From the NCBI GenBank assembly GCA_947458455.1, contig CANGYJ010000006.1, positions 124,001 through 188,000 on the forward strand: a DNA stretch of 64,000 nt. Reading direction: 5' to 3'. The DNA comes from Verrucomicrobiaceae bacterium. GTDB taxonomy: Bacteria > Verrucomicrobiota > Verrucomicrobiia > Verrucomicrobiales > Verrucomicrobiaceae. Positions within the stretch are counted from its first letter, which is position 1. Each line of letters opens with the position of its first letter. Under the pieces are notes generated by a model that searched no databases, had not been told where the DNA came from, and worked only from the letters and a program-made list of their open reading frames with translations. Shown here piece by piece: positions 2,659 to 61,071 of the stretch. The position numbers and the translations under genes are program-made.

Positions 2659-2686
2659 ACCATCGAGGACCTACCGGCGACGATCA

Positions 2687-3005
2687 GGCGAAGCAAAGTG
2701 GCCATCTCGCTCTGCGAGATGAGCAGGACGCTTGGCCTACTCACCGGTTCACCGTCTCCAAGCATCCTTCATGCAGGCGAAAGCCTTTTGCTCATTTGCG
2801 GTCGCTTCGCTCCACCACACAGGCAGCCGACGGCTGGCTACTCTGCTGGCGCATCTTCAGTGTCTCTGGATGGATTTCAAACACGGCCTAGCGATATGGA
2901 GCGGGCAGTGGCCACAGGCTCCATGCGTGCCCGTCATTGGATGTCCGCTGAAGTCGCGAGGCGCCACGTTCCTCTCGCGGAGCGAGAGGACGACTTTGCT
3001 TCGCC
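2687..3005. repeat. Long palindromic-ended repeat element (intergenic copy)
   Basis: About 319 bp with inverted ends: the left end begins GGCGAAGCAAAGTGGCC followed by a small palindrome around CATCTCGC, and the right end has CTCGCGGAGCGAGAGG followed by CGACTTTGCTTCGCC. The first ~180 bp align by eye with the reverse complement of 24955-25129 inside the large PVC gene; shared blocks include TTTGCTCATTTGC and GTCGCTTCGCTCC. The two copies therefore belong to one family. The extra length here lies in the right half. It fills most of the 459-bp gap between genes, and I see no credible protein in it. Confidence 0.75.
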
Positions 3006-3060
3006 GATTCGTTGCCGCTGGGGTGGGTAAACCACTAGTGCCCCCACCGATGAGCCCAAC

Positions 3061-3091
3061 AAAAACGGCGTCCCAGTGAAGGGACGCCGTT
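3061..3091 (-). terminator. Rho-independent terminator of the MFS gene
   Basis: On the minus strand a 10-bp perfect stem (AACGGCGTCC with its complement) is followed by TTTTTG. It lies 27 bp past the stop of the MFS transporter gene. Confidence 0.85.
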
Positions 3092-3117
3092 GGAGAGATG
3101 GAGATGCTGAGGTTGCT

Positions 3118-4674
3118 TTACGCAGCCTCGTCGATCTTCACGGCTTTGTAGCCACCGATGCTCTTGAAGTAGAGCAGCAGGAGGAGATAGATCGCGGCCA
3201 TTGCAGCAGGGATGTAGGCATCCGCTTTCAGCGTGGCGCGGTCACCAGCCTGATCGGCTTCGACGACGGTCTTCTGCTGCGGGGTCTTTTCCTTGGCATC
3301 CTTGGCGGCGGCCAGCTTGGTGCCGTCGAGGCCAAAGACTTCGGTGGACTTCAGGTTGAGGAAGGAGCTAGGCGTGGCGGCTTTGTACTCGCTGTAGAGA
3401 GCGGCATCGGTCTTGTTGAGCGCTTCACCGGCGAAGCGGTCTTTGCAGTAGCCGAGGCCTGGGCCACCGATCAAGCCAGCGGAGAGCATGCCAATGCCAC
3501 CCATGATGGACATCGCCACCGCGCCGGACTGAGGAAAGCGGTCGCCGACGACGGCAAGCATGGTGGGCCAGAAGAAGGTCTTGCCAACGGCATAGATGCC
3601 GAGAGCGACGAGAGCCACGGTAAAGGTCTGCATGCCGCTGGCGAGCACAAGACCAACAGAGGCGATGATAGCGCAAACGACCAGCAGGCCGATGGGGGAG
3701 AGTTTGAGGGTCTTTTCGATCCAGTGGGCGCAGAAACGCAGGCCGAACATGATGGCGGAGGTCCAGATGAAGAGGTACTTGCCCTCCTCGGAGGTGAAGA
3801 GATTGCCGGTGATGTTCTGAATCCAGCCATCCGTGCCGAGTTCAACCGCGCCAACGAGGGCGTGAACCACAAAAAGCACAAAGAGAAGGATGGAGCCGAG
3901 CGAGAACTTCGTGATCACCGCCACTGCGATGAGAAGGATGCCGCCGATGGCGTAGCCGATGACCTTGGCGTTGTCAGGAGAGAAGGCCTTCGCGATGTCG
4001 CCGAAGAAATTGGCGAGCAGGTAGCAGGCGACAAGGGCACCGAGGATGCCGACAGGCTTGAGCATGCTGACGAAGCTGGCACCTTTTTCGGCGGCTTCGG
4101 ATTTCGGGAACTTCTGACCCATGAACATGATCGCGTAGAGCACGGTAGGGATGAGGTAGAGGGCGAGCTGGGTCTTCCAGCCGACCTGCATCTTGTCGTC
4201 GAGCACCCAGCCAGCCACGGAGCCGAGCACCATGCCAGCAGGCCAGGAGGCATGCAGGATGTTCAGGTAATGCGTGCGGTTTTCCGGGAAGAGGGTAGCC
4301 ACGAGAGGATTGGCCACGGCTTCGAGCGTGCCGTTGGCATAGGCGAAGATGAACATGCCCCAGAAGAGGAAGTCATACGCGTTTGCAGGCGTGCTGGCAC
4401 CAAAGGTCACGAAGGCCGAGACGATGTGGCAGATCAGAGCGAGGGCGACGAGCTTGCCGTAGCCGATTTTGTCCACGATCAGGCCGCCGAAGATGATGCC
4501 GAAGCAGAAGCCGGAGAAACCCGCACCGCCGATGGCTCCGAGCTGGGCTCCAGTGAAGCCGAACTCCTTGCCCCAGTTGTCAAAGATGCCGCCACGGATG
4601 GCGAAGCCGACGCCGGCGGCCAGAATGGCCATGAATCCGGCCCAGAGAAGTCTCATTCGATTGTTTTCGCTCAT
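3118..4674 (-). CDS. MFS transporter, sugar/FucP-like
   Basis: 518 residues with about 12-14 hydrophobic segments. The N-terminal part ([20 protein letters not shown]) and the loop DKIGYGK after the second segment follow the major facilitator pattern. The segment around [20 protein letters not shown] resembles the fucose/hexose symporter branch (FucP-like), so a sugar or sugar-derivative substrate is likely but unproven. A long non-membrane loop of about 90 residues near the C-terminus (residues 400-485) precedes the last segment, which is unusual. A terminator follows at once, so the gene is probably a single transcription unit. It is divergent from the PBP5-like gene. Confidence 0.85.
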
Positions 4675-4861
4675 AGTCGTGATGTTGATGGTATAGTTGG
4701 TATGTGTTGTTCGGGTTGGGAGTGCAGGAAAGCGCGTGTTTTAGGGGCCGCCTATCGCGGCGACAAGGAAAAAGTTCTTTCCATGCAGAAGAAGTACGGG
4801 GCGGCGGCCAGATAAATCGTTGGTTGCGGCACCGGGCGGGGTTGCTAAAGCAGGGGCCTCC

Positions 4862-19021: not shown

Positions 19022-20311
19022 ATGTCCACTTTCCGCACCGTCAAAGGCTTCCGCGACTTCTTCCCCGAAGAATGTGCGCTGCGCAATTACATCGCCGAAA
19101 CCTGGCGCGTCGTCGCACGTCGCTATGGCTTCGTCGAGTATGAGGCACCCGTCGTGGAGAGCACCGACCTCTTCCGCAAAAAAAGCGGCAATGAAATCAC
19201 CGCGCAGCTCTTCTGCTTTCGCGACAAGGCCGACCGCGAGATCACGCTGCGCCCTGAGGTGACGCCCTCGCTCGCCCGCATGGCCACCGCACGCCAGCGT
19301 GACTTCAAAAAGCCCATCAAGTGGTTCCAAATCGGCCCCTGCTTCCGCTATGAGGAGCCGCAGGAAGGCCGCGGACGCGAGTTCATCCAGTTCAATGCCG
19401 ACATCCTCGGCGACAGCGGCCCCGCCACCGCTGCGGAGCTCATCTCGCTGGCCATCGACACCATGCGCGAGTTCGGCGTCAGCGCCGACGACTTCATCAT
19501 CCGTCTCAGCAACCGCGAGATCTGGCACGGCTTCCTCACCGAGAAAAACATCGCCGCCGAACACGCCACCACCTTCCTTAGCATCATCGACAAAATCGAG
19601 CGTGCGAAGCCCGACGAGACCGAGAAAAAGCTCGTCGAGATCGGCCTCACCACCGCCGAAGTTCGCGCCTTCATGGCCTCTACGGATGAGAACCACCCCG
19701 CCTTCGCCGACTTGAAGGCCAACCTCACCGCCCGAGGCCTCTGGCAGCATGTGCGCATCGACGCCACCATCGTGCGCGGCCTCGCCTACTACACCAGCGT
19801 CGTCTTTGAGGTCTTCGATCTCAAACACGGCCTCCGCGCCCTCGCCGGCGGCGGCACTTACGACAAGCTCTGCGCCCTCATCAGCGATGGAAACGTCGAT
19901 ATGCCCGCCGCAGGCTTCGCCATGGGCGATGTCGTGCTCGGCATCCTGCTCAAGCGCACGCCCGGTGCGCAAATGAAGCTCACCAGCGCCCTCCTCGCCG
20001 CCAGCAGCATTGATGCCTTCGTCGTCATCGCCGATGAAGCCCAGCGCCCGCACGCCCTCGCCTCCATCCAGCAACTCCGCGCCGCCGGTGTGCGTATCGA
20101 TTACCCCTTCGGCTCGCAAAAAGTCGGCAAGCAATTCCAAGCCGCCGAAGACCGCAAAGCCCGCTTCGCCATCGTCTTCGGTGCCGAATATCCCGAAGTC
20201 ATCGTGAAGAACCTCATCGCCCGCTCGCAGACCTCCGTGCCTGCCGCGAGCGTCGTCGATGAAGTGCAAAAGATGCTCGCGGAGCCTGCGATTGGGCCGC
20301 TGATCGCCTGA
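19022..20311 (+). CDS. hisS: Histidyl-tRNA synthetase
   Basis: 429 residues. A class II enzyme charging tRNA-His. The N-terminal text KGFRDFFPEEC matches the family. Motif 2 is RYEEPQEGRGREFIQFN near residue 115-130. The histidine-specific loop RGLAYYTSVVFEVFD lies near 255-270, and AGGGTYDKLC follows. A C-terminal anticodon-binding domain (about 325-429) contains VRIDYPFGSQKVGKQFQAA. RPEVTPSLARM replaces the more usual RPEGT/RPENT; this variant is known in a branch of HisRS. It has its own promoter region, divergent from recF. Confidence 0.95.
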   Translation: MSTFRTVKGFRDFFPEECALRNYIAETWRVVARRYGFVEYEAPVVESTDLFRKKSGNEITAQLFCFRDKADREITLRPEVTPSLARMATARQRDFKKPIKWFQIGPCFRYEEPQEGRGREFIQFNADILGDSGPATAAELISLAIDTMREFGVSADDFIIRLSNREIWHGFLTEKNIAAEHATTFLSIIDKIERAKPDETEKKLVEIGLTTAEVRAFMASTDENHPAFADLKANLTARGLWQHVRIDATIVRGLAYYTSVVFEVFDLKHGLRALAGGGTYDKLCALISDGNVDMPAAGFAMGDVVLGILLKRTPGAQMKLTSALLAASSIDAFVVIADEAQRPHALASIQQLRAAGVRIDYPFGSQKVGKQFQAAEDRKARFAIVFGAEYPEVIVKNLIARSQTSVPAASVVDEVQKMLAEPAIGPLIA

Positions 20312-20366
20312 AACGATTTTCAGCCTATAACGACTTTTTGAAGCCTTATAGGCTGAAAATCGTTTC
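20310..20366 (+). repeat. Perfect 21-bp inverted repeat at the hisS stop
   Basis: Arms 20310-20330 and 20346-20366 are exact reverse complements (ends GAAACGATTTTC and GAAAATCGTTTC) with a 15-nt loop containing TTTTT. The left arm overlaps the final base of hisS. There is no T-run after the right arm, so it is not a standard terminator. It may end hisS mRNA, protect the 3' end, or be a mobile palindrome. Confidence 0.8.
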
Positions 20367-20466: not shown

Positions 20467-21048
20467 ATGATTGACTTTGCCCTCGAAAAATACCCGGTCC
20501 GTTATCCGCTCGAAACCAGCGTGCAGTGCCTCATTCGACCGCTGGAGCCTGACGACGAGCCCGGTTTCATGAAATTCCTGCTTCAAGTGCCTGAGTTTGA
20601 GCGCCTGTTCATCAAACAGCGACTCGACAACCCGGCGCTGGTCAATGAGTGGTGTGCGGATGTAGATTACGACGCCCGGCTGCCATTGCTGGCCTTTGCG
20701 GACGGGCAGGTCATCGGCCTCGCGACGCTGGAGCAGCGACACGGCGGCTGGAAGCGCCATATCGGCATGACGCATCTGCTCACGCATCCCGGCTACCGAG
20801 GCGTGGGGCTCGCGGGCATGCTCATTCGCGAGATCATCGAAGTGGCGCGGCATTGCGGCCTCTCGCACCACCAGGCGAAGTTCAATGCGGAGCGCCAGCT
20901 CGCCATCCAGGCCTTTCGAGAGGCAGGGTTCGATGAATTGATGCGCCTTCCGGGCTATGTTATGGACATGCAGGCCAAAACCCATGCCTATGTGCTCATG
21001 GGCATGAAATTGACGACCGACATCGAAAACACTGGCGCAGGCGATTGA
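20467..21048 (+). CDS. GNAT family N-acetyltransferase
   Basis: 193 residues. Acetyl-CoA-dependent acyl transfer to an unknown amine. Residues 20-190 have the GNAT order: beta strand with IRPLEPDDEPGFMKFL, the region LAFADGQVIGLATLEQR, motif A THLLTHPGYRGVGLAGMLI (near 110-120; the R/Q-x-x-G-x-G/A pyrophosphate loop is YRGVGLAG), and motif B AIQAFREAGFDELMRLPGY. No partner gene gives the substrate. It begins 100 bp downstream of the hisS palindrome, ends 38 bp upstream of the large PVC gene. Confidence 0.85.
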   Translation: MIDFALEKYPVRYPLETSVQCLIRPLEPDDEPGFMKFLLQVPEFERLFIKQRLDNPALVNEWCADVDYDARLPLLAFADGQVIGLATLEQRHGGWKRHIGMTHLLTHPGYRGVGLAGMLIREIIEVARHCGLSHHQAKFNAERQLAIQAFREAGFDELMRLPGYVMDMQAKTHAYVLMGMKLTTDIENTGAGD

Positions 21049-21086
21049 GCGATCTCGGGGGCGGTGAGCGTATCGTCTCGCACACC

Positions 21087-24000
21087 ATGAAGCTCGTTTT
21101 CGCCTGCCTTTTCCTGCTCACCACACTCGCCTCGGCGGCCACCTTCCGCGCCGGAGTCGCCACGGTGGACATCTCACCCACGGAGTTCCCACGCATCATC
21201 GCGGGTGGGTTTCTCGAAGGACGGGGTGAAAAGCTCGCGGACAAGCTCTTCGTGCGTAGTTTCGTGCTCGATGACGGCAAGATGAAGATCGCCTTTGCCA
21301 TCGTGGACACGTGCATGATGGAGCAGTCGCTCATTGATGAGGCCAAAGGCATCGCGGCGAAGCAGTGCGACATCCCGGTGGATCGCATGATGGTCAGCGC
21401 CACGCACACGCACTCCGCACCCGCCGCGATGGGCTGCCTCGGCACGCGAAAGGACACCGTGTATGCGAAATTCCTCACGCCAAAGATCGCCGAGGCCATC
21501 GTGGCGGCGGATATGGCGCTGCAACCGGCCCGCATCGGCTGGGGCAGCTACGACGACTGGGAGCACACGCACAACCGCCGCTGGATTCGCCTGCCCGGCA
21601 AAGAGGTCGTCGATCCCTTCGGCCAGCCCACAGGCCGCGCGAACATGCACCCCGGCTACCTCAGCAAAGACGTCGTCGGCCCCAGCGGCCCCGTCGATCC
21701 GCAGCTCAGCGTCATCGCGCTGCAAACGCTCGATGGCAAACCGCTCGGCGTACTCGCGAACTACTCGCAGCACTACTTTGGCACCGCGCCGGTCTCCGCT
21801 GACTACTTTGGCCTCTTCTGCCGCCACCTCGCCGCCAAAATGGGCCAGCAGGGCGATGGCAACGGCCCCTTCGTCTGCGCCATGAGCCAGGGCACCAGCG
21901 GCGACCAGATGTGGATGGACTACGGCGCGGAGAAAAAGACGATCACCCTCGACACCTACGCCTCCGAAGTCGCCGACAGCGCCCTGAAGGCCCTGCAAAC
22001 CGTGAAGTATGTCGATCACGCCCCGCTCGGCATGATCGAGAAGACCCTGGAGCTCAAGTATCGCGTCCCCGACGAAAAACGCCTCGCCTGGGCAAGACCC
22101 ATCGCCGCAAAGATCGAGAATGATGTGCCGAAGAACAAAGAGGAAGTGTATGCACGAGAGGCGCTGATCCTCCACGAACGTCAAAAGACCAGCGTGAAGC
22201 TCCAAGCCATCCGCATCGGCGACCTGAGCATCGCGACGCTGCCGAACGAGGTGTATGCGATCACGGGGTTGAAGTTGAGGGAGCGGTCGCCTTTCAAAAC
22301 GCACTTCAACATCGAGCTGGCCAATGGGGCGGAAGGTTACATTCCGCCTATAGAACAGCATGCGCTCGGTGGATACACGACTTGGCCAGCACGCACTGCT
22401 GGGCTGGGAATCACTGCTGAATTTAAAATTCTGGATGGACTCTCGGGTGCAATTAAAAGCCTCACTGATGAGAAGCGGAATATTTCCGCCGATCAAATGG
22501 CAGCCTATCAAGAGACTGTCATCGATTCGAAGCCCCTGGCATACTTTCGCTGCGAAGACTTTAGCTTTATGATGAGAGATGAGGTTACTCCATGGAACGT
22601 AATCATTCAGCCAGAACAGATGAAATGCGCTTTTTATCTTCCAGGACCTGGCAGCGGGCTTGGTTTTGGGGGGGAATCTGCTCTCACTCCATCTGCGTTT
22701 TCGGGGCCGAATGCCATCAATCGCGCAGTGCATTTAGCTGGAGGAAGTCTGAAGACGGATTGGCGAGCGATTTTCAAACAAAAGAGCTACTCAGCTACCC
22801 AAAACACGATCGCCCTCTGGTTTTGGCTCGGTCACGAAAGCGGCGCGAGCGATCGCACGGGCGAGTTGATCAACGCGCTGGGGGTCAGCTTGAAGGCGCA
22901 TCAGTTCCCGGATCACACGGTGAGGCTCGAATGGGGAGATAAAGTGGCTTCGGCTTCAGCCGAAGATTCTGATTCGGCTAAAGCCGAAGCCACTTTGTTT
23001 GCCGACGACTGGCATTTCGCCGTGCTCATTCGCGATGGCGAAAACGTGCGCGTGCATCTCGATGGCTCGGAGAAGCCTGTTTTGACCGGAAAGGCCGGGA
23101 AAGCGGCGAATGAAGTGCTTTTTGGTCAAGGACTTGAAGGTCGGCTGGATGAGATCACGATCTGGGATCGCGTGATCGAGCCATCACTCATCGCGAAGCT
23201 TTGGAACATCTCGAAAGTGGGCGAGGAGAATGCGAAGCGGGCGGTTTCGCGAGCGGAGCGGAAGAAGCGTGGTGCAGCCGTCTCGGCTGCTCAGAAGGAC
23301 GCAGTCCAGAGGACTGCACCACACTCGGAAAACTGGTCCGCGTCGATGCGCTTCAAGAACACAAAGGCGAACAACGTCAGCGCGGTGACGGCTTACCTCA
23401 TCTCCCGCGGACCGAAGGGGGATCATCAAGCGCCGGGAGATCACCTTGGCATTGGCGGCAGCTACAAAGACTCCGAACCCGGCAAACTCTTCGTCTTCAA
23501 TGGCAACGCGGCCTCTCAAATCGTGCGCGGCACGACGGTGATCGAGCCGGGCACGTGGAATGACGTGAAGCTCGAGCGTCTCGGCTCACGCGTGAAGGTG
23601 ACGCTCAATGGCAAGATGGAGATCGATGCCGAAGTGCCCGTCACCGCGCCAGGTGCGAAGGAATTGTTCTTTGGCCAGCGATGCGATGACTTCGCGCCGC
23701 TGGAGGGTGAGTTTGAGAAGGTGGAGGTCGCCGGTTTGGAAAGTGGTGCAGCCGTCGCGGCTGCTTCAAAGAACGCAGGCGAGACGCCTGCACCACACTC
23801 CCAACCCCTCTCCCCCGAGGAATCCGCGAAGAAATGGCATGTGCGCGAGGGCTACCGTATCGAACTCGTCGCGGCGGAGCCGGTGGTGCTCGATCCGGTG
23901 GCGTTTGATTGGGATGAGCAGGGCCGCCTGTGGGTCATCGAGATGGCGGACTACCCGCTGGGCATGGATGGCAATGGCAAGGCCGGCGGACGCGTCGTGC

Positions 24001-26738
24001 AACTGGAGGACACGAACCGCGACGGTCGCTACGACAAGCGCCACGTCATCGTCAGCGACTTGAGCTATCCCACCGGCATTTTGACGTGGCGTGAAGGCGT
24101 CATCGTCACCGCCGCGCCGGACATCTTTTTCATTTCGCCCGATGGCACGAAGAAAGTGCTCTACACCGGCTTCAGCACCGGCAACCAGCAGCTCCGCGTG
24201 AACGGCCTGCGCTGGGGCATGGACGGCTGGGTGTATTGCGCCGCTGGGGCGCACCACGGCGGCTACAACAAGGGCACGCTCATTGAGTGCAAGCTCACCG
24301 GTGCGAAGATCGACCTCGGCAGCCGCGATTTCCGCTTCAAGCCGGACACCGGCGAGTTCGACCCGCAGAGCGGCCCCTCGCAGTTCGGTCGCGCTCGCGA
24401 CGACTGGGGCCACTGGTTCGGCGTGCAGAACAGTTTTCCGCTCTGGCACTACGTTTTGCAGGATCACTACCTGCGCCGCAATCCGCACATCATCCCGCCG
24501 GACCCGATCCATCAGCTCTTCCCGCGCAATCCGCCCGTCTATCCCGCCAGCAGCATGGAGAAGCGCTTCCACAGCTTCGACCAGGCCGGACGCTTCACCA
24601 GCGCCTGCGGCATCGAGGTGTATCGCGATCAAGTGCTCTTCACCGACGGCAAAACGCACGCCTTCACCTGCGAGCCCTTCCACAACGTCGTGCAGCATCA
24701 CGTCCTCGAGGACGACGGCGTCACCTTCAAAGCCGTGCGCGATCCCGCCGAGTCGAATATGGACTTTCTCGCCAGCGAAGACCGCTGGTGCCGCCCCGTC
24801 ATGGTCCGCACCGGCCCGGATGGTGCGCTGTGGGTGGCTGACATGTATCGCTACATGATCGAGCACCCGCAGTGGCTGCCGCAGAACGGCAAAGAGGAGC
24901 TTCTGCCGCATTATCGCGAAGGGGACGACAAGGGGCGGATTTGGCGGGTGGTGAAAAGTAGCCATCTCGCTCCGCGAACCGACCGAAGGGAGATAGCCAG
25001 CCAAAGGCTGCCCGAAGGGGGGAGCGAAGCGACAGCAAATGAGCAAACGGCGTCCAATAGCGGTAAAGCGTCCAGCAAAGGAAGCGTTCCGTTCATCTCG
25101 ACGGAGCGAGATGACTACTTTGCTTCGCCGAATGGCTGGCTGAGGGACAAAGCGCAGATGCGGGTGTTGTGGACCAAACTGACTACGCAAGGCATCGCCG
25201 CGCTATTCGACCAAGCGACCAGCAGCAAGAACGCAGCAGCACAAGCCCAAGCTGCATGGACTCTTCATCAGGCCGGTCAACTCACACCAGATTTGCTCAA
25301 ACTACTTCTGCTGAGCGACAACGATGAAGTTGTCGTTCAAGGCCTCCAGATCGCCAAATCGATGCCCTGGGAGAAGAACGAGGAAGCACTGCGCTTGCTT
25401 GTGAATGGCAACAGAGCCCGTCATCCGCGAGTTCGGATGCAACTCGCTCTTTCGGCCGGTCAGTGGAGCGGAGATTGGGCTGCAGATATTGTCGGGAGCA
25501 TTTTGGAGGAAGAGCCGCTTGATGGGCTAGTCTTCAGTGCCGCGTTGAGTTCTTCGTTGCCGCATCTCACTCGAATCTGTGAGCAGTTCGGCGCCTACGA
25601 AGGTCAAGTTAACCTCAAACTCGTCGGAACACTTCTGCGCTGCGCTTTGGCGACGAAGAACGAAAAAGCCATCGCGGCGCTCGTGACGCGGATAGATGCG
25701 CAAAAGGGCCTGGAGGAACTTCTGGCCGTCCTGGACGAGAATAACCTCTCGCTGGCCGATTTCGCGAAGCAGGTGACGGAGGCGAAGGCGCGTGAAGCGG
25801 TCGAAAAAATGACGGCGAGACTGCAACAGGCCGCAGACTCGCTCCAAACGGCTCCGACGATGGAATCGCTGGCTTTGCTGGCCTCGGATCGCGAGCATCG
25901 GGATCGGGTGAAAGCGCTGCTGCCGGAGCTTTGGGCCAAGAGTGTGAATGTAGGCGCACTTGCCAAAGTGCGGAAAGACGGTGGTGCGGCCACGCCAGAC
26001 ACCCGCAGTCTGGCGACTGCGCCTACAGCGGTGCTGCGGCTCGTCGCGAAGCTGCAACCGAAGGGCGGCGAGCAGTTTTTGCTCGATGGCTGGGACCAGC
26101 GCACGCCGGCGCTGCGCACGCAGATCCTCGAAACGCTGCTCTCGAATGACGATTGGGCTCTGGCGCTGCTGAAACGGCCGGAGGCGAAGGCTTGTGATGC
26201 GGCGACGCGGGCGCGGTTGATGAAGCATCCGAAGAAAAACATCGCCAACCTGGCAGAGAAGGTCTTCGCAAATTCCACGAGCGCCACGCGGGCGGCGGCG
26301 GTGGAGAAGTTCAAACCAGCGCTGAAGCTCCAGGGCGACGCAGCACACGGGAAGACCGTTTTCGCGAGCGTGTGCATCAGTTGCCACAAACTCGACGGAG
26401 TGGGCCTCGAACTCGGCCCGGACCTGCGCAGCGTGGCGCAGCACGATGCCGAAAAGCTCCTCAACTCCATTCTCGACCCCAGCGCGATCATCGAGCCGGG
26501 GTTCATGGCGTATCATTGCATGCTCAAAAGCGGCGAGCAGCTCTACGGTGTGATCGCGACGGAGACGAGTGCAAGCCTCACGCTGAAGATGGCCGGAAAC
26601 ATCACCAAATCCGTCCTGCGCAGCGATGTGGCCTCGTTGAAGAGCGCTGGTATCTCTTTGATGCCCGAAGGTCTCGAAGACGCGATGACGCCGCAGTCGC
26701 TGGCGGATTTGATCGCGTATTTGAAGGTGGCGCGATAA
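21087..26738 (+). CDS. Giant PVC protein: ceramidase-like domain + two LamG-like domains + PVC dehydrogenase + HEAT region + heme-binding C-terminus
   Basis: 1,883 residues from ATG 21087, which starts a signal peptide (MKLVFACLFLLTTLASA); the frame also opens at 21045. Residues 20-465 match the neutral/alkaline ceramidase N-terminal domain (ATHTHSAPAAMG near 107). About 480-715 and 748-882 are two concanavalin/LamG-like domains. About 909-1290 is the PVC-type membrane-bound dehydrogenase propeller (VAFDWDEQGRLWVIEMADYP). About 1346-1740 is HEAT-like. The end holds a cytochrome c motif CISCH near 1763, with LGPDLRSVAQ, and the PVC heme-binding extension. Likely periplasmic, passing electrons from an unknown substrate. 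Five palindromic repeats are embedded in frame (next entries). Bases 22400-22800 look lower in GC than the flanks. Confidence 0.88.
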   Translation: MKLVFACLFLLTTLASAATFRAGVATVDISPTEFPRIIAGGFLEGRGEKLADKLFVRSFVLDDGKMKIAFAIVDTCMMEQSLIDEAKGIAAKQCDIPVDRMMVSATHTHSAPAAMGCLGTRKDTVYAKFLTPKIAEAIVAADMALQPARIGWGSYDDWEHTHNRRWIRLPGKEVVDPFGQPTGRANMHPGYLSKDVVGPSGPVDPQLSVIALQTLDGKPLGVLANYSQHYFGTAPVSADYFGLFCRHLAAKMGQQGDGNGPFVCAMSQGTSGDQMWMDYGAEKKTITLDTYASEVADSALKALQTVKYVDHAPLGMIEKTLELKYRVPDEKRLAWARPIAAKIENDVPKNKEEVYAREALILHERQKTSVKLQAIRIGDLSIATLPNEVYAITGLKLRERSPFKTHFNIELANGAEGYIPPIEQHALGGYTTWPARTAGLGITAEFKILDGLSGAIKSLTDEKRNISADQMAAYQETVIDSKPLAYFRCEDFSFMMRDEVTPWNVIIQPEQMKCAFYLPGPGSGLGFGGESALTPSAFSGPNAINRAVHLAGGSLKTDWRAIFKQKSYSATQNTIALWFWLGHESGASDRTGELINALGVSLKAHQFPDHTVRLEWGDKVASASAEDSDSAKAEATLFADDWHFAVLIRDGENVRVHLDGSEKPVLTGKAGKAANEVLFGQGLEGRLDEITIWDRVIEPSLIAKLWNISKVGEENAKRAVSRAERKKRGAAVSAAQKDAVQRTAPHSENWSASMRFKNTKANNVSAVTAYLISRGPKGDHQAPGDHLGIGGSYKDSEPGKLFVFNGNAASQIVRGTTVIEPGTWNDVKLERLGSRVKVTLNGKMEIDAEVPVTAPGAKELFFGQRCDDFAPLEGEFEKVEVAGLESGAAVAAASKNAGETPAPHSQPLSPEESAKKWHVREGYRIELVAAEPVVLDPVAFDWDEQGRLWVIEMADYPLGMDGNGKAGGRVVQLEDTNRDGRYDKRHVIVSDLSYPTGILTWREGVIVTAAPDIFFISPDGTKKVLYTGFSTGNQQLRVNGLRWGMDGWVYCAAGAHHGGYNKGTLIECKLTGAKIDLGSRDFRFKPDTGEFDPQSGPSQFGRARDDWGHWFGVQNSFPLWHYVLQDHYLRRNPHIIPPDPIHQLFPRNPPVYPASSMEKRFHSFDQAGRFTSACGIEVYRDQVLFTDGKTHAFTCEPFHNVVQHHVLEDDGVTFKAVRDPAESNMDFLASEDRWCRPVMVRTGPDGALWVADMYRYMIEHPQWLPQNGKEELLPHYREGDDKGRIWRVVKSSHLAPRTDRREIASQRLPEGGSEATANEQTASNSGKASSKGSVPFISTERDDYFASPNGWLRDKAQMRVLWTKLTTQGIAALFDQATSSKNAAAQAQAAWTLHQAGQLTPDLLKLLLLSDNDEVVVQGLQIAKSMPWEKNEEALRLLVNGNRARHPRVRMQLALSAGQWSGDWAADIVGSILEEEPLDGLVFSAALSSSLPHLTRICEQFGAYEGQVNLKLVGTLLRCALATKNEKAIAALVTRIDAQKGLEELLAVLDENNLSLADFAKQVTEAKAREAVEKMTARLQQAADSLQTAPTMESLALLASDREHRDRVKALLPELWAKSVNVGALAKVRKDGGAATPDTRSLATAPTAVLRLVAKLQPKGGEQFLLDGWDQRTPALRTQILETLLSNDDWALALLKRPEAKACDAATRARLMKHPKKNIANLAEKVFANSTSATRAAAVEKFKPALKLQGDAAHGKTVFASVCISCHKLDGVGLELGPDLRSVAQHDAEKLLNSILDPSAIIEPGFMAYHCMLKSGEQLYGVIATETSASLTLKMAGNITKSVLRSDVASLKSAGISLMPEGLEDAMTPQSLADLIAYLKVAR
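22941..22996. repeat. In-frame palindrome P1 inside LamG-like domain 1
   Basis: Arms 22941-22964 and 22973-22996 match at 23 of 24 positions (outer sequence AAAGTGGCTTCGGC), with an 8-nt loop. It is read as an Ala/Ser/Glu-rich stretch (residues about 619-637) between EWGDKV and FADDWHF, where a LamG-type loop would be expected. No stop in frame. Confidence 0.8.
23269..23322. repeat. In-frame palindrome P2 (outer stem + two hairpins)
   Basis: GTGGTGCAG (23269-23277) pairs with CTGCACCAC (23314-23322). Inside are GCAGCCGTCTCGGCTGC-type and GCAGTCCAGAGGACTGC hairpins. Read in frame as GAAVSAAQKDAVQRTAPHS in the linker between the LamG-like domains. It is the same family and phase as P3 at 23743. 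Confidence 0.8.
23743..23796. repeat. In-frame palindrome P3, second copy of the P2 family
   Basis: GTGGTGCAGCCGTC opens the element and CTGCACCAC closes it, with hairpins GCAGCCGTCGCGGCTGC and GCAGGCGAGACGCCTGC. It is the same length as P2 and read in the same phase, as GAAVAAASKNAGETPAPHS, in the linker before the dehydrogenase domain. Confidence 0.8.
24955..25129. repeat. In-frame copy of the long repeat (family of 2687-3005)
   Basis: Begins AAAGTAGCCATCTCGCTCCG and ends CGGAGCGAGATGACTACTTT then GCTTCGCC, so its termini are inverted repeats. It aligns with the reverse complement of the first ~180 bp of the intergenic element at 2687. It encodes about 57 residues (roughly 1290-1346) rich in Ser, Arg, Glu and Ala, placed between GRIWRVV and SPNGWLRDKAQ, which are normally near-neighbours in this family. 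Confidence 0.8.
25950..26027. repeat. In-frame palindrome P4 in the HEAT region
   Basis: TGTAGGCGCACTTGCCA at the left and TGGCGACTGCGCCTACA at the right pair at most positions. Inner hairpins (GCACTT/AAGTGC and CCAGAC/GTCTGG) lie between. It encodes residues about 1622-1648 without a stop. Confidence 0.7.
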
Positions 26739-26741
26739 GGG

Positions 26742-26846
26742 ACGGAACCCCGTTGGGGTTCGCCCTTGAGTGTAGGTTTTCTTCCAATGTTAACCCGGGG
26801 TTCTGCGAACCCCGGGCTGCATGACGGAAGGCCGTTGGCCTTCGCC
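26742..26846. repeat. Cluster of three short palindromes after the giant gene
   Basis: 26742-26764 (ACGGAACCCCGTTGGGGTTC plus GCC) and 26824-26846 (ACGGAAGGCCGTTGGCCTTC plus GCC) are two versions of one hairpin with the same ends and loop GTT but different stem bases. Between them, 26792-26818 is a GC-rich hairpin (AACCCGGGGTTC then GAACCCCGGG). Together with the terminator they fill the 258-bp intergenic gap. Confidence 0.7.
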
Positions 26847-26896
26847 AGAATTTCCCGTCCTTCCGCAGAACACGTTGGCCTTTGGGGCAAACAAAA

Positions 26897-26920
26897 GGCC
26901 GAGGCATGACTGCCTCGGCC
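26897..26920 (-). terminator. Rho-independent terminator of the minus-strand exported-protein run
   Basis: On the minus strand a GGCCGAGGCA stem with its complement around TCAT or similar is followed by TTTTGTTTGCC. It lies about 75 bp past the stop of the TIM-barrel gene. Confidence 0.75.
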
Positions 26921-43099: not shown

Positions 43100-43286
43100 G
43101 GGAGTAACTTCAACAATCAGCAATGGGAGTTCAGCAGCCGAGCGCAGCGAGACAGACTGCTACAGGCAGCCCGAAGGGAAGCGAAGCGCATCAATCTGCA
43201 GTTTCGAGGGCGGTTCGGCGGACGGAACCGGGAATGTCGATTGCTGATTGATGATTGCTGATTTTTGAAGTGTCTGAGGCGGTAAC
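43100..43286. repeat. Intergenic repeat, filled form
   Basis: 187 bp with the same start (GGGAGTAACTTCAACAATCA) and end (TGAGGCGGTAAC) as 41612-41738, but carrying an additional block at 43137-43193. The rest of the gap to pyrC (43287-43342) shows no feature. Confidence 0.75.
43137..43193. mobile_element. 57-bp insertion in the intergenic repeat
   Basis: The block starts GCCGAGCGCAGCG and ends GAAGCGAAGCGCATCA, and is absent from the related copy at 41612. It contains GGCAGCCCGAAGGGAAGCG, close to the inner part of the in-gene repeat (TGCCCGAAGGGGGGAGCG at about 25010). The CA bases at its edges make the junction ambiguous by 2 bp. It looks like a small non-autonomous element; no transposase is seen. 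Confidence 0.6.
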
Positions 43287-59487: not shown

Positions 59488-60000
59488 GGCGGAATGGCAT
59501 TTAGTCAAGGCTACAGTCAGAGGTCAGAGCTTCGTCCCCCCAGCCGCAACGCTGCATCCGGACTCTTCCTCTGACTCGAACTCAACTGCGAACGGGAAAG
59601 GCTGACCACGGAATACACCGAATACACGGAAAATGAAGGGAAGAGTCCGCTTCACCAGGCTCATCCAAAAGGTGCGAGACCATGATCAGACCTTGGCCTG
59701 ATCCTTCCGTGTATTCCGTGTATTTCGTGGTTCCTCATTTATGAATTAAGGTTCATCCGTCAGCGACCAGACAGGTTCCACACCCGTTCCTTATAAAGCC
59801 GGGCAAAGACACCCAAGACCACATCCACACTCTTTGACGCCCGATTCAAAGCTCACTTGAGGGTTCGGCGGCGTTGGTCGAATGCAAAGGTGGTGCAGAA
59901 CGATTCGGATCAGGCGACGGCGAGCGGGAAGCGTCGATGACACGACAGATGCCATACGAGCCGTTGCCTGCATCCGTTTTGTTCGCCTTGGTTTGTTGCT
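59488..60000. other. Intergenic stretch with one palindromic repeat
   Basis: 513 bp between the kinase and the small hypothetical gene. It holds the large inverted repeat at 59604-59732 and no convincing gene, tRNA or terminator otherwise. The text at 59780-60000 has lower GC than the flanks. Confidence 0.5.
59604..59732. repeat. Inverted repeat with tandem GGAATACAC units
   Basis: The left arm 59604-59631 (GACCACGGAATACACCGAATACACGG) and right arm 59705-59732 pair at 25 of 28 positions, with a ~73-nt loop. Each arm is itself a tandem repeat of GGAATACAC-like units. The loop has no coding signal. Confidence 0.8.
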
Positions 60001-60807: not shown

Positions 60808-60818
60808 GCGGGCGCACT

Positions 60819-60875
60819 CAAGGAGCGGGACTTGCCAAGTCCCGGTATGAGGCACATGGCAAGTGCCTCTCCTTG
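60819..60875. repeat. Outer-stem plus two-hairpin palindrome next to the integrase remnant
   Basis: CAAGGAG (60819-60825) pairs with CTCCTTG (60869-60875). Inside are hairpins CGGGACTTGCCAAGTCCCG and GAGGCACATGGCAAGTGCC. The same three-part fold as at 23269 and 10595. Confidence 0.75.
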
Positions 60876-60879
60876 ATCG

Positions 60880-61071
60880 CGGTGCTCGCCGATCCAGCAG
60901 CCGACGAGCATGGTAGAACTGAAAAGGGAGGAATGGGTCAGAAGGGAGGAATGGCTCGGAGGCTCGCGCCATTTGCCCTTTTCAGTTCCTCCATTCTCAG
61001 TTCTTCCATCCCGCCCTGAGGCACTTGGCAAGTGCCTCTCCTTGGGGGAGCGGTGGACGAGTCCGACCGGC
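60880..61071. repeat. Second palindromic block before the DUF5362-like gene
   Basis: Contains 61018-61038 (GAGGCACTTGGCAAGTGCC, then TC) followed by TCCTTG, the right half of the element at 60819, and an imperfect inverted repeat around GAACTGAAAAGGG / CCCTTTTCAGTTC between 60907 and 60985. No gene seen here. Confidence 0.6.

Follow-up and report, generated by a model that had tools for sequence, protein, structure and literature searches.

REP doublets and related palindromes read in frame in loops of a large PVC-type protein and of other Verrucomicrobiaceae proteins

RESULTS

A large gene with five in-frame palindromes

The window, by which we mean the whole 64,000-nucleotide stretch of DNA analyzed here, comes from a Prosthecobacter-type Verrucomicrobiaceae genome of 5.35 Mb in 28 contigs. 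It contains a long host gene (Table 1), matched at E <= 1e-100 in 55 of the 76 genomes searched, the source genome included. As a sequence-only reading of this DNA had proposed, five inverted repeats are present in this gene, and all of them are free of stops in the single frame of the ORF. That reading spoke of several different families; P2 and P3 are 84% identical, and the palindromes of the host gene thus represent four families rather than five. The estimate of at least 150 added residues in that reading was too high, since the segments total about 137 amino acids (56, 54, 54, 167, and 79 bp) and partly stand in place of host residues. The net gain relative to relatives with an empty site is less than the segment length (7 amino acids at S2, 5 at S3, and 25 at S5).

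Table 1. Host gene and palindromic segments in the window
Feature	Site	Position	Strand	Description
Host gene		21087..26738	+	1883-aa ORF, ATG at 21087; domains (residues): Ceramidase_alk 44-274, Laminin_G_3 569-702, DUF7133/TIGR02604 909-1291, heme-binding CxxCH domain (TIGR02603) 1750-1880
P1	S1	22941..22996	+	AAAGTGG-hairpin-spacer-hairpin-CCACTTT; family A; encodes KVASASAEDSDSAKAEAT; inside the Laminin_G match
P2	S2	23269..23322	+	REP doublet, 54 bp; GTGGTGCAG..CTGCACCAC; encodes GAAVSAAQKDAVQRTAPH; relatives have AQVQSSALLKAH there
P3	S3	23743..23796	+	REP doublet, P2 family, 54 bp; encodes GAAVAAASKNAGETPAPH; relatives have a KPAAPAPAPKVELA-type linker
Long element	S4	24955..25121	+	Family I; arms 24955-24974 and 25102-25121; directly after DUF7133
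Extra 62 nt within long element		24978..25039	+	Net +60 relative to the short form in L062, L064, and L084
P4	S5	25949..26027	+	GTAG-headed doublet, 79 bp; encodes VGALAKVRKDGGAATPDTRSLATAPT

P1, which starts at residue 619, falls within the Laminin_G_3 match, P3 ends just before the DUF7133 match, the long element begins at the end of that match, and P4 falls in the interval that separates DUF7133 from the cytochrome c domain, where Pfam gives no match. A model of the Laminin_G domain (26 sequences) had a mean pLDDT of 76.9, with the P1 peptide (model residues 90 to 108) covering its weakest interior stretch, between strands; 10-residue blocks starting at residues 91 and 101 scored 54 and 64, and values were below 50 at residues 97 to 102. 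The predicted structure fits a P1 peptide that forms a floppy surface loop. Identity of the segments as an RNA family was rejected, because an Rfam search of window positions 20900 to 26900 returned two matches, both far below the gathering score.

Nucleotide identity of the window gene to relatives was 0.87 to 0.97 in codons 910 to 1200 (part of DUF7133) and 0.69 to 0.84 in codons 100 to 500 (part of the ceramidase region). The higher identity of the DUF7133 part may reflect stronger constraint or conversion among paralogues. Further strong inverted repeats were found in the window at 20310-20366, 59605-59731, and 60812-61051, the last including ACTTGCCAAGT, the core of family C.

P2 and P3 belong to a dispersed family of REP doublets

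P2 and P3 share the architecture of REP doublets, a GTGG head followed by a TGCAG..CTGC hairpin, present twice and arranged head to head. Their stem sequences differ, while pairing and head are kept. This REP pattern occurs four times in the window, as two inverted pairs, where 0.01 occurrences are expected, and none of 100 shuffled sequences reached four. Genome-wide, the single-REP P2-type pattern with up to three mismatches matched 40 times compared to 6 times in a reversed control, as expected of a dispersed multicopy repeat. Merging these matches into elements and adding the two window copies gave 27 P2-type elements, 19 of which lie within ORFs called by codon-usage score and 8 of which are intergenic; 3 of these 8 flank a transposase gene. 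Two three-mismatch matches (C5:205370 and C13:37647) were dropped as likely chance matches, although both lie in ORFs and would raise the in-gene count, and a match at C7:287393, checked as a possible copy in a split gene, looks intergenic. The P2 family is therefore not unique to the host gene. Exact P2 doublets were found eight times in the genome and not at all in the control, and all eight are in frame inside long ORFs. Forty-one of their 48 reading frames are stop-free, suggesting that surviving in-gene copies need not be rare. The exact pattern is present in 16 of 48 genus genomes, the source genome included, with the matches in two of them (G020 and G033) looking like chance. The codon phase of the forward head, assigned by eye for 17 in-gene P2-type copies, was GAA in 11, VVQ in 6, and WCS in none, which is suggestive only.

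Head-to-head REP doublets that constitute a mobile unit linked to genes of REP-associated tyrosine transposases (RAYTs) have been described as REPINs (Bertels and Rainey 2011, PMC3116915), and we assign P2 and P3 to this class with good confidence. In the accessible text of that study, REPs were counted in extragenic space, and the strict REP definition, as far as given in PMC12306157, includes that REPs seldom overlap protein-coding regions. The P2 type shares the doublet and the RAYT link with REPINs and differs in that most of its elements reside in genes.

P1, P4, and the long element

P1-type patterns with up to three mismatches matched seven times in the genome and five times in the control, hardly above background; four matches had at most one mismatch, two of them being the two halves of P1 itself. 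The P4 pattern had three matches in the genome and none in the control: the window copy, a copy in frame in a glycosyltransferase ORF, and an intergenic one. Among 28 labelled orthologue rows, P4 at S5 was present only in the window genome and in L064. P1 and P4 are REP-like by shape only.

The long element occurs in a shorter form in other species. Repeat copies related to its extra 62 nt are present at window positions 2783-2840 and 43138-43178. Copies related to the long-element repeat as such were observed at 2670-3022 and 43107-43271, and the former appears to be intergenic because it lies between ORFs 1612-2658 and 3076-4815.

The same few places are empty or filled by unrelated families in relatives

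The orthologue set comprised 76 loci, 29 of the 30 from the genome search (without L061) and 47 of the 75 of a second set (L091 to L136 and L142). After deduplication, 49 relatives and the window gene were aligned as 50 coding sequences, some as distant as 42% identity. Hairpins scoring at least 15 numbered 36 in these sequences, whereas three codon-shuffled sets averaged 0.33. Twenty of them are located at S1 (about residues 615 to 638), six at S3 (883 to 904), eight at S4 (1290 to 1345), and one at S6 (1217 to 1220), a site inside the DUF7133 match; one lies outside the aligned start. P2-type and P4-type doublets at S2, S3, S5, and S6 have differing stems and hence lower scores; these were recognized by sequence instead.

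Across the 49 relatives, palindromes are confined to about six places, and the same place can be empty or filled by unrelated families. Some species lack a palindrome at S1, whereas at least four unrelated families occur there among the remaining ones, and several families are likewise represented at S3 and at S4. S6 contains a P4-type palindrome, family I, or another segment, while S2 is filled by the P2 type only and S5 by the P4 type only. On a 42-row tree, the fewest changes explaining these states were 16 at S1, 7 at S2, 11 at S3, 16 at S4, 2 at S5, and 5 at S6; the tree derives from one gene, possibly recombined, was built without the sites, and uses family labels assigned by eye. The proposal of dispersed in-frame palindromes, with several families present in one gene, is borne out, as is the existence of relatives without them. 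Residues shared with distant homologues at the same place, which would speak against insertion, were found in part: a P1-type palindrome occupies the P1 place in three distant homologues (L104, L107, and L126; 58 to 61% identity), yet species closer to the window genome have this place empty or filled by another family. Such variation between empty and differently filled states at one place points to mobile elements, and from these alignments the palindromes look like mobile elements that recurrently occupied the same permissive loops.

This distribution bears on a reading in which the segments are ordinary hypervariable linkers whose palindromes took shape in situ under selection favoring mRNA hairpins, for instance for translational pausing between domains. 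The location of the segments in loops and linkers agrees with it, as does the length variation of a MutS loop (see below) even in rows without an evident palindrome. It is contradicted by loops filled with unrelated families, by P2 and P3 stems that differ while pairing and head persist, and by the occurrence of the same sequences in other genes, in intergenic DNA, and beside RAYT genes. Given the dispersed copies, shaping in place is already hard to hold for P2 and P3, and we regard it as very improbable overall; selection for mRNA hairpins is possible as a secondary role.

S2 gives a different picture. Its carriers are seven rows scattered on the tree, with one family, one junction type, and element identities of 0.95 to 1.00 to the window copy. 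A single junction type in scattered carriers suggests that not every filled site represents a separate insertion, and would be expected if each site had received one or few insertions that then spread by interspecies recombination, recurrent insertion being rare. The several unrelated families at S1, S3, S4, and S6 nevertheless require several insertions per site. Moreover, in comparisons of carriers with the window row, the S2 flanks of carriers were no more identical to the window row than those of empty rows, and recent block transfer at S2 was rejected on this ground. Few insertions followed by spread thus seems unlikely as a general account.

Host codons are missing at several palindrome sites

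Alignment gaps start and stop at the palindrome edges, a check proposed in the sequence-only reading, but host codons are missing as well at S1, S2, and S3. At S2, rows without an element read AQVQSSALLKAH and carriers read GAAVSAAQKDAVQRTAPHS between identical neighbors. Carriers at S3 lack the KPAAPAPAPKVELA-type stretch, and carriers at S6 lack VRDPAESKM. Of 27 readable rows of valyl-tRNA synthetase (ValRS), 24 have GSDEKRKA or a close variant; the window genome has SGSAVSAEAGGTPAPHSRRE at this place. Subtraction of the element length gave losses of about 7 host residues at S1, 11 at S2, 13 at S3, 6 at S6, 4 in ValRS, and 1 at S5, whereas S4 and the hypervariable MutS loop were too variable to judge. 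In-frame elements of 49, 50, and 56 bp also occur, from which we infer that junctions must vary and that selection kept the frame-keeping outcomes. With host codons gone, clean excision would not be able to restore the empty form.

The host stretch at empty S2 (window 23230-23340) resembles the P2 element of carriers (p 0.0015, one of eight tests). Homeology-guided insertion was rejected, as p was below 0.1 at S2 alone among the eight site tests.

Palindromes in MutS, ValRS, and other proteins

Hosts of P2-type elements include the genes for MutS, ValRS, and leucyl-tRNA synthetase (LeuRS), several genes for DUF7133 proteins, one of which has ThuA, and genes for two RND pumps, a protein kinase, and an FAD oxidoreductase. 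In 10 of 17 in-gene P2-type copies outside the window (scan without L180), the element lies within the span of a Pfam match, and the inserts in LeuRS, ValRS, and MutS lie in or beside alignment gaps relative to solved structures. In the DUF7133 paralogues L167, L172, and L181, the element follows directly after GRIWR or GRIFR, which is where the window gene carries the long element. The combination of several families in the host gene had been called striking, but other ORFs in the same genome also contain hairpins of two or three families, as named by eye.

Of the 48 genus genomes, the source genome included, 45 yielded MutS and 44 yielded ValRS, and 30 rows of each were aligned. On visual inspection, about five unrelated palindromes occupy the MutS loop in different species and others have none; ValRS holds two or three. 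These genes also speak to the concern that the segments reflect assembly or annotation artefacts or a decaying pseudogene, to which we assign a negligible probability. Most relatives are indeed metagenome assemblies, and one listed orthologue match (L080) contains a TAA. Against this, the remaining listed orthologue matches have no internal stop, the patterns recur across assemblies that are independent of one another and are also seen in the record of a named isolate, Brevifollis gellanilyticus (L103), and the element-bearing MutS and ValRS are the sole matches at E <= 1e-100 in the genome of the window.

ValRS showed further variation. In the window genome, a second in-frame palindrome of another family (CGCCTCTCCGAGGCG hairpins) is present at L175:4285-4328, in the gene that also has the P2-type element. 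In G041 (L217), query residues 478 to 512 correspond to an in-frame segment that resembles, by its peptide, the dispersed AATGACGAAT..ATTCGTCATT repeat; this place is 25 to 105 amino acids long in full-length rows. The stop-to-stop frames of ValRS span 1,291 to 1,404 amino acids in G016, G011, and G010 and 979 in the window genome; in the three longer ones, the match breaks around query residues 270 and 490.

The overall frequency of hairpins was estimated in 20 stretches of 20 kb (400 kb), chosen regardless of repeats, of which 85% was called coding. Hairpins scoring at least 16 numbered 24 in this sample, 7 in called genes and 17 intergenic, and none in one Markov-generated set. The excess outside genes in a largely coding sample indicates that genes are depleted of strong hairpins overall; the P2 family is more intragenic than other hairpins. 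If the sample is typical, the genome contains roughly 90 in-frame copies.

RAYT-like genes flanked by the same families

The source genome has 12 matches to PF01797. The ORF at C4:208874-209518 is a RAYT with HVH (the HUH motif) and Y..NP, flanked by P2-type REPs on both sides; its match to NF047646 (REP_Tyr_transpos) had an E value of 2.8e-18 and 66 bits, below the curated cut-off of 80. Six RAYT-like genes of this genome carry five families, P2, C, K (two genes), N, and G, and all five also occupy loops of the host gene or MutS, here or in other species. RAYT-alignment matches at E <= 1e-20 were present in 45 of 48 genus genomes, the source genome included.

We surveyed 96 loci (60 extra regions, 30 listed loci, and the 6 loci of the source genome), a part of all RAYTs matched, and RAYT motifs were present in 85 of them, with at least two genes counted twice. 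A family was found on both flanks at five loci for B, four for C, two for D, two for I, five for K, one for N, and two for P2, the P2 loci representing one gene. Beyond P2, seven families (B, C, D, I, K, N, and G) thus occur on both RAYT flanks, all known from host-gene or MutS loops; G stands outside the motif count, as its protein does not fit the tyrosine pattern, and its flanking repeats were observed separately. Loop homes of B, C, D, I, K, and G are in the window gene, here or in other species, and those of N and of an AAGGA-headed family are in MutS. A loop family and its RAYT were present in the same genome for B (G016 and G011), D (G027), and I (G011 and G026). Family I palindromes flank the RAYT genes L315 (G011) and L344 (G026); the survey motif for this family was loose and gave one chance match, at L174, and no family I repeat was seen beside the six RAYT-like genes of the source genome. 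The long element is thus a member of a family found flanking RAYTs in sister species. Among the 85 RAYT loci, none was flanked by families A (P1), P4, F, H, V, or W, and family M was found on one side of one RAYT only.

We weighed a non-RAYT route, in which the palindromes would have been moved as MITEs of another transposase or arisen by template switching at stalled forks. Imprecise junctions, the resemblance of the empty S2 stretch to the P2 element, and the lack of a RAYT for families A and P4 among the 85 loci are in line with such a route. The occurrence of P2, B, C, D, I, K, N, and G palindromes on both sides of RAYT-like genes makes it quite unlikely.

DISCUSSION

We consider it highly probable that the in-frame segments are nonautonomous GTAG/GTGG REP doublets (REPINs) and related palindromes that survived in frame and recurrently filled tolerant loops. 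Several of these families are linked to RAYTs, IS200/IS605-like HUH enzymes, in the same genus. By analogy with this known enzyme family, copies would be inserted as single-stranded hairpins, and an in-gene copy would survive only if the frame is kept, no stop is introduced, and a tolerant loop or linker is hit. The junctions are not clean, with about 4 to 13 host residues missing at S1, S2, S3, S6, and the ValRS place. A loop that tolerates one palindrome tolerates others, and the same few loops are hence filled by other families elsewhere. Alleles probably also move between species by recombination. The element-coded peptides are most likely neutral filler in the protein.

The sequence-only reading had named Rickettsia palindromic elements as the precedent and no equivalent in Verrucomicrobiota. 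Rickettsia elements, of 105 to 146 bp, are described in a review as lying in frame in conserved proteins and as neutral or slightly detrimental, and guanylate kinase with such an insert was translated and active (PMC2229807, in its accessible part). By description only, their in-frame position in conserved proteins is the likeness to the present palindromes. A Rickettsia-type origin is not needed, since RAYT-linked REPs explain P2 and P3, and the RAYT-linked GTAG REP superfamily is the closer relative. Its members, as reported in the accessible text of Di Nocera et al. 2013 (PMC3733652), consist of a 4-nt head and a hairpin, form head-to-head dimers, and flank RAYT genes (REPtrons). Intragenic in-frame dimers, encoding 20 to 30 amino acids, were already described there in a verrucomicrobium, with the highest number in Opitutus terrae, whose GTAG-20 family has a GTGG head. 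Genes for tRNA synthetases and DNA repair were among the targets, genes such as uvrA were struck twice, one recB gene pair had different REPs at about the same site, and linkers and loops were suggested as tolerant places. Head, hairpin, head-to-head dimers, RAYT flanking, and in-gene dimers are thus common to both systems (PMC3733652), and the kind of element described here is already known, also in Verrucomicrobiota. Compared to the intragenic REPs of O. terrae as presented in that text, we find several families per gene, loops filled by unrelated families in many species, missing host codons at several sites, and a P2 family mostly in genes; no comparable orthologue comparison was found in the same text. 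In a literature search that had most subscription journals outside its reach, no account of multi-family turnover at fixed loops was found. This turnover, host-codon replacement at several sites, and the RAYT link appear to be new.

RAYT-linked palindromes might even act as genus-wide mobile peptide cassettes, with insertion coupled to host-codon removal in a way that favors frame-keeping loop replacement. We deem this rather unlikely; if true, loops of even essential enzymes would be diversified faster than by mutation.

Our survey suggests that, in these environmental bacteria, probably mobile palindromes have repeatedly come to lie inside working genes, some of them for core housekeeping enzymes, where they now encode protein loops. 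It provides a natural, many-species insertion map of the loops in MutS, valyl-tRNA synthetase, and large PVC-type enzymes that accept foreign residues, and makes both the conversion of selfish hairpins into protein sequence and the removal of target DNA upon repeat insertion testable. It also cautions that such loops, when found in Verrucomicrobiota proteins, are poor evidence of homology, as they can be mobile DNA.
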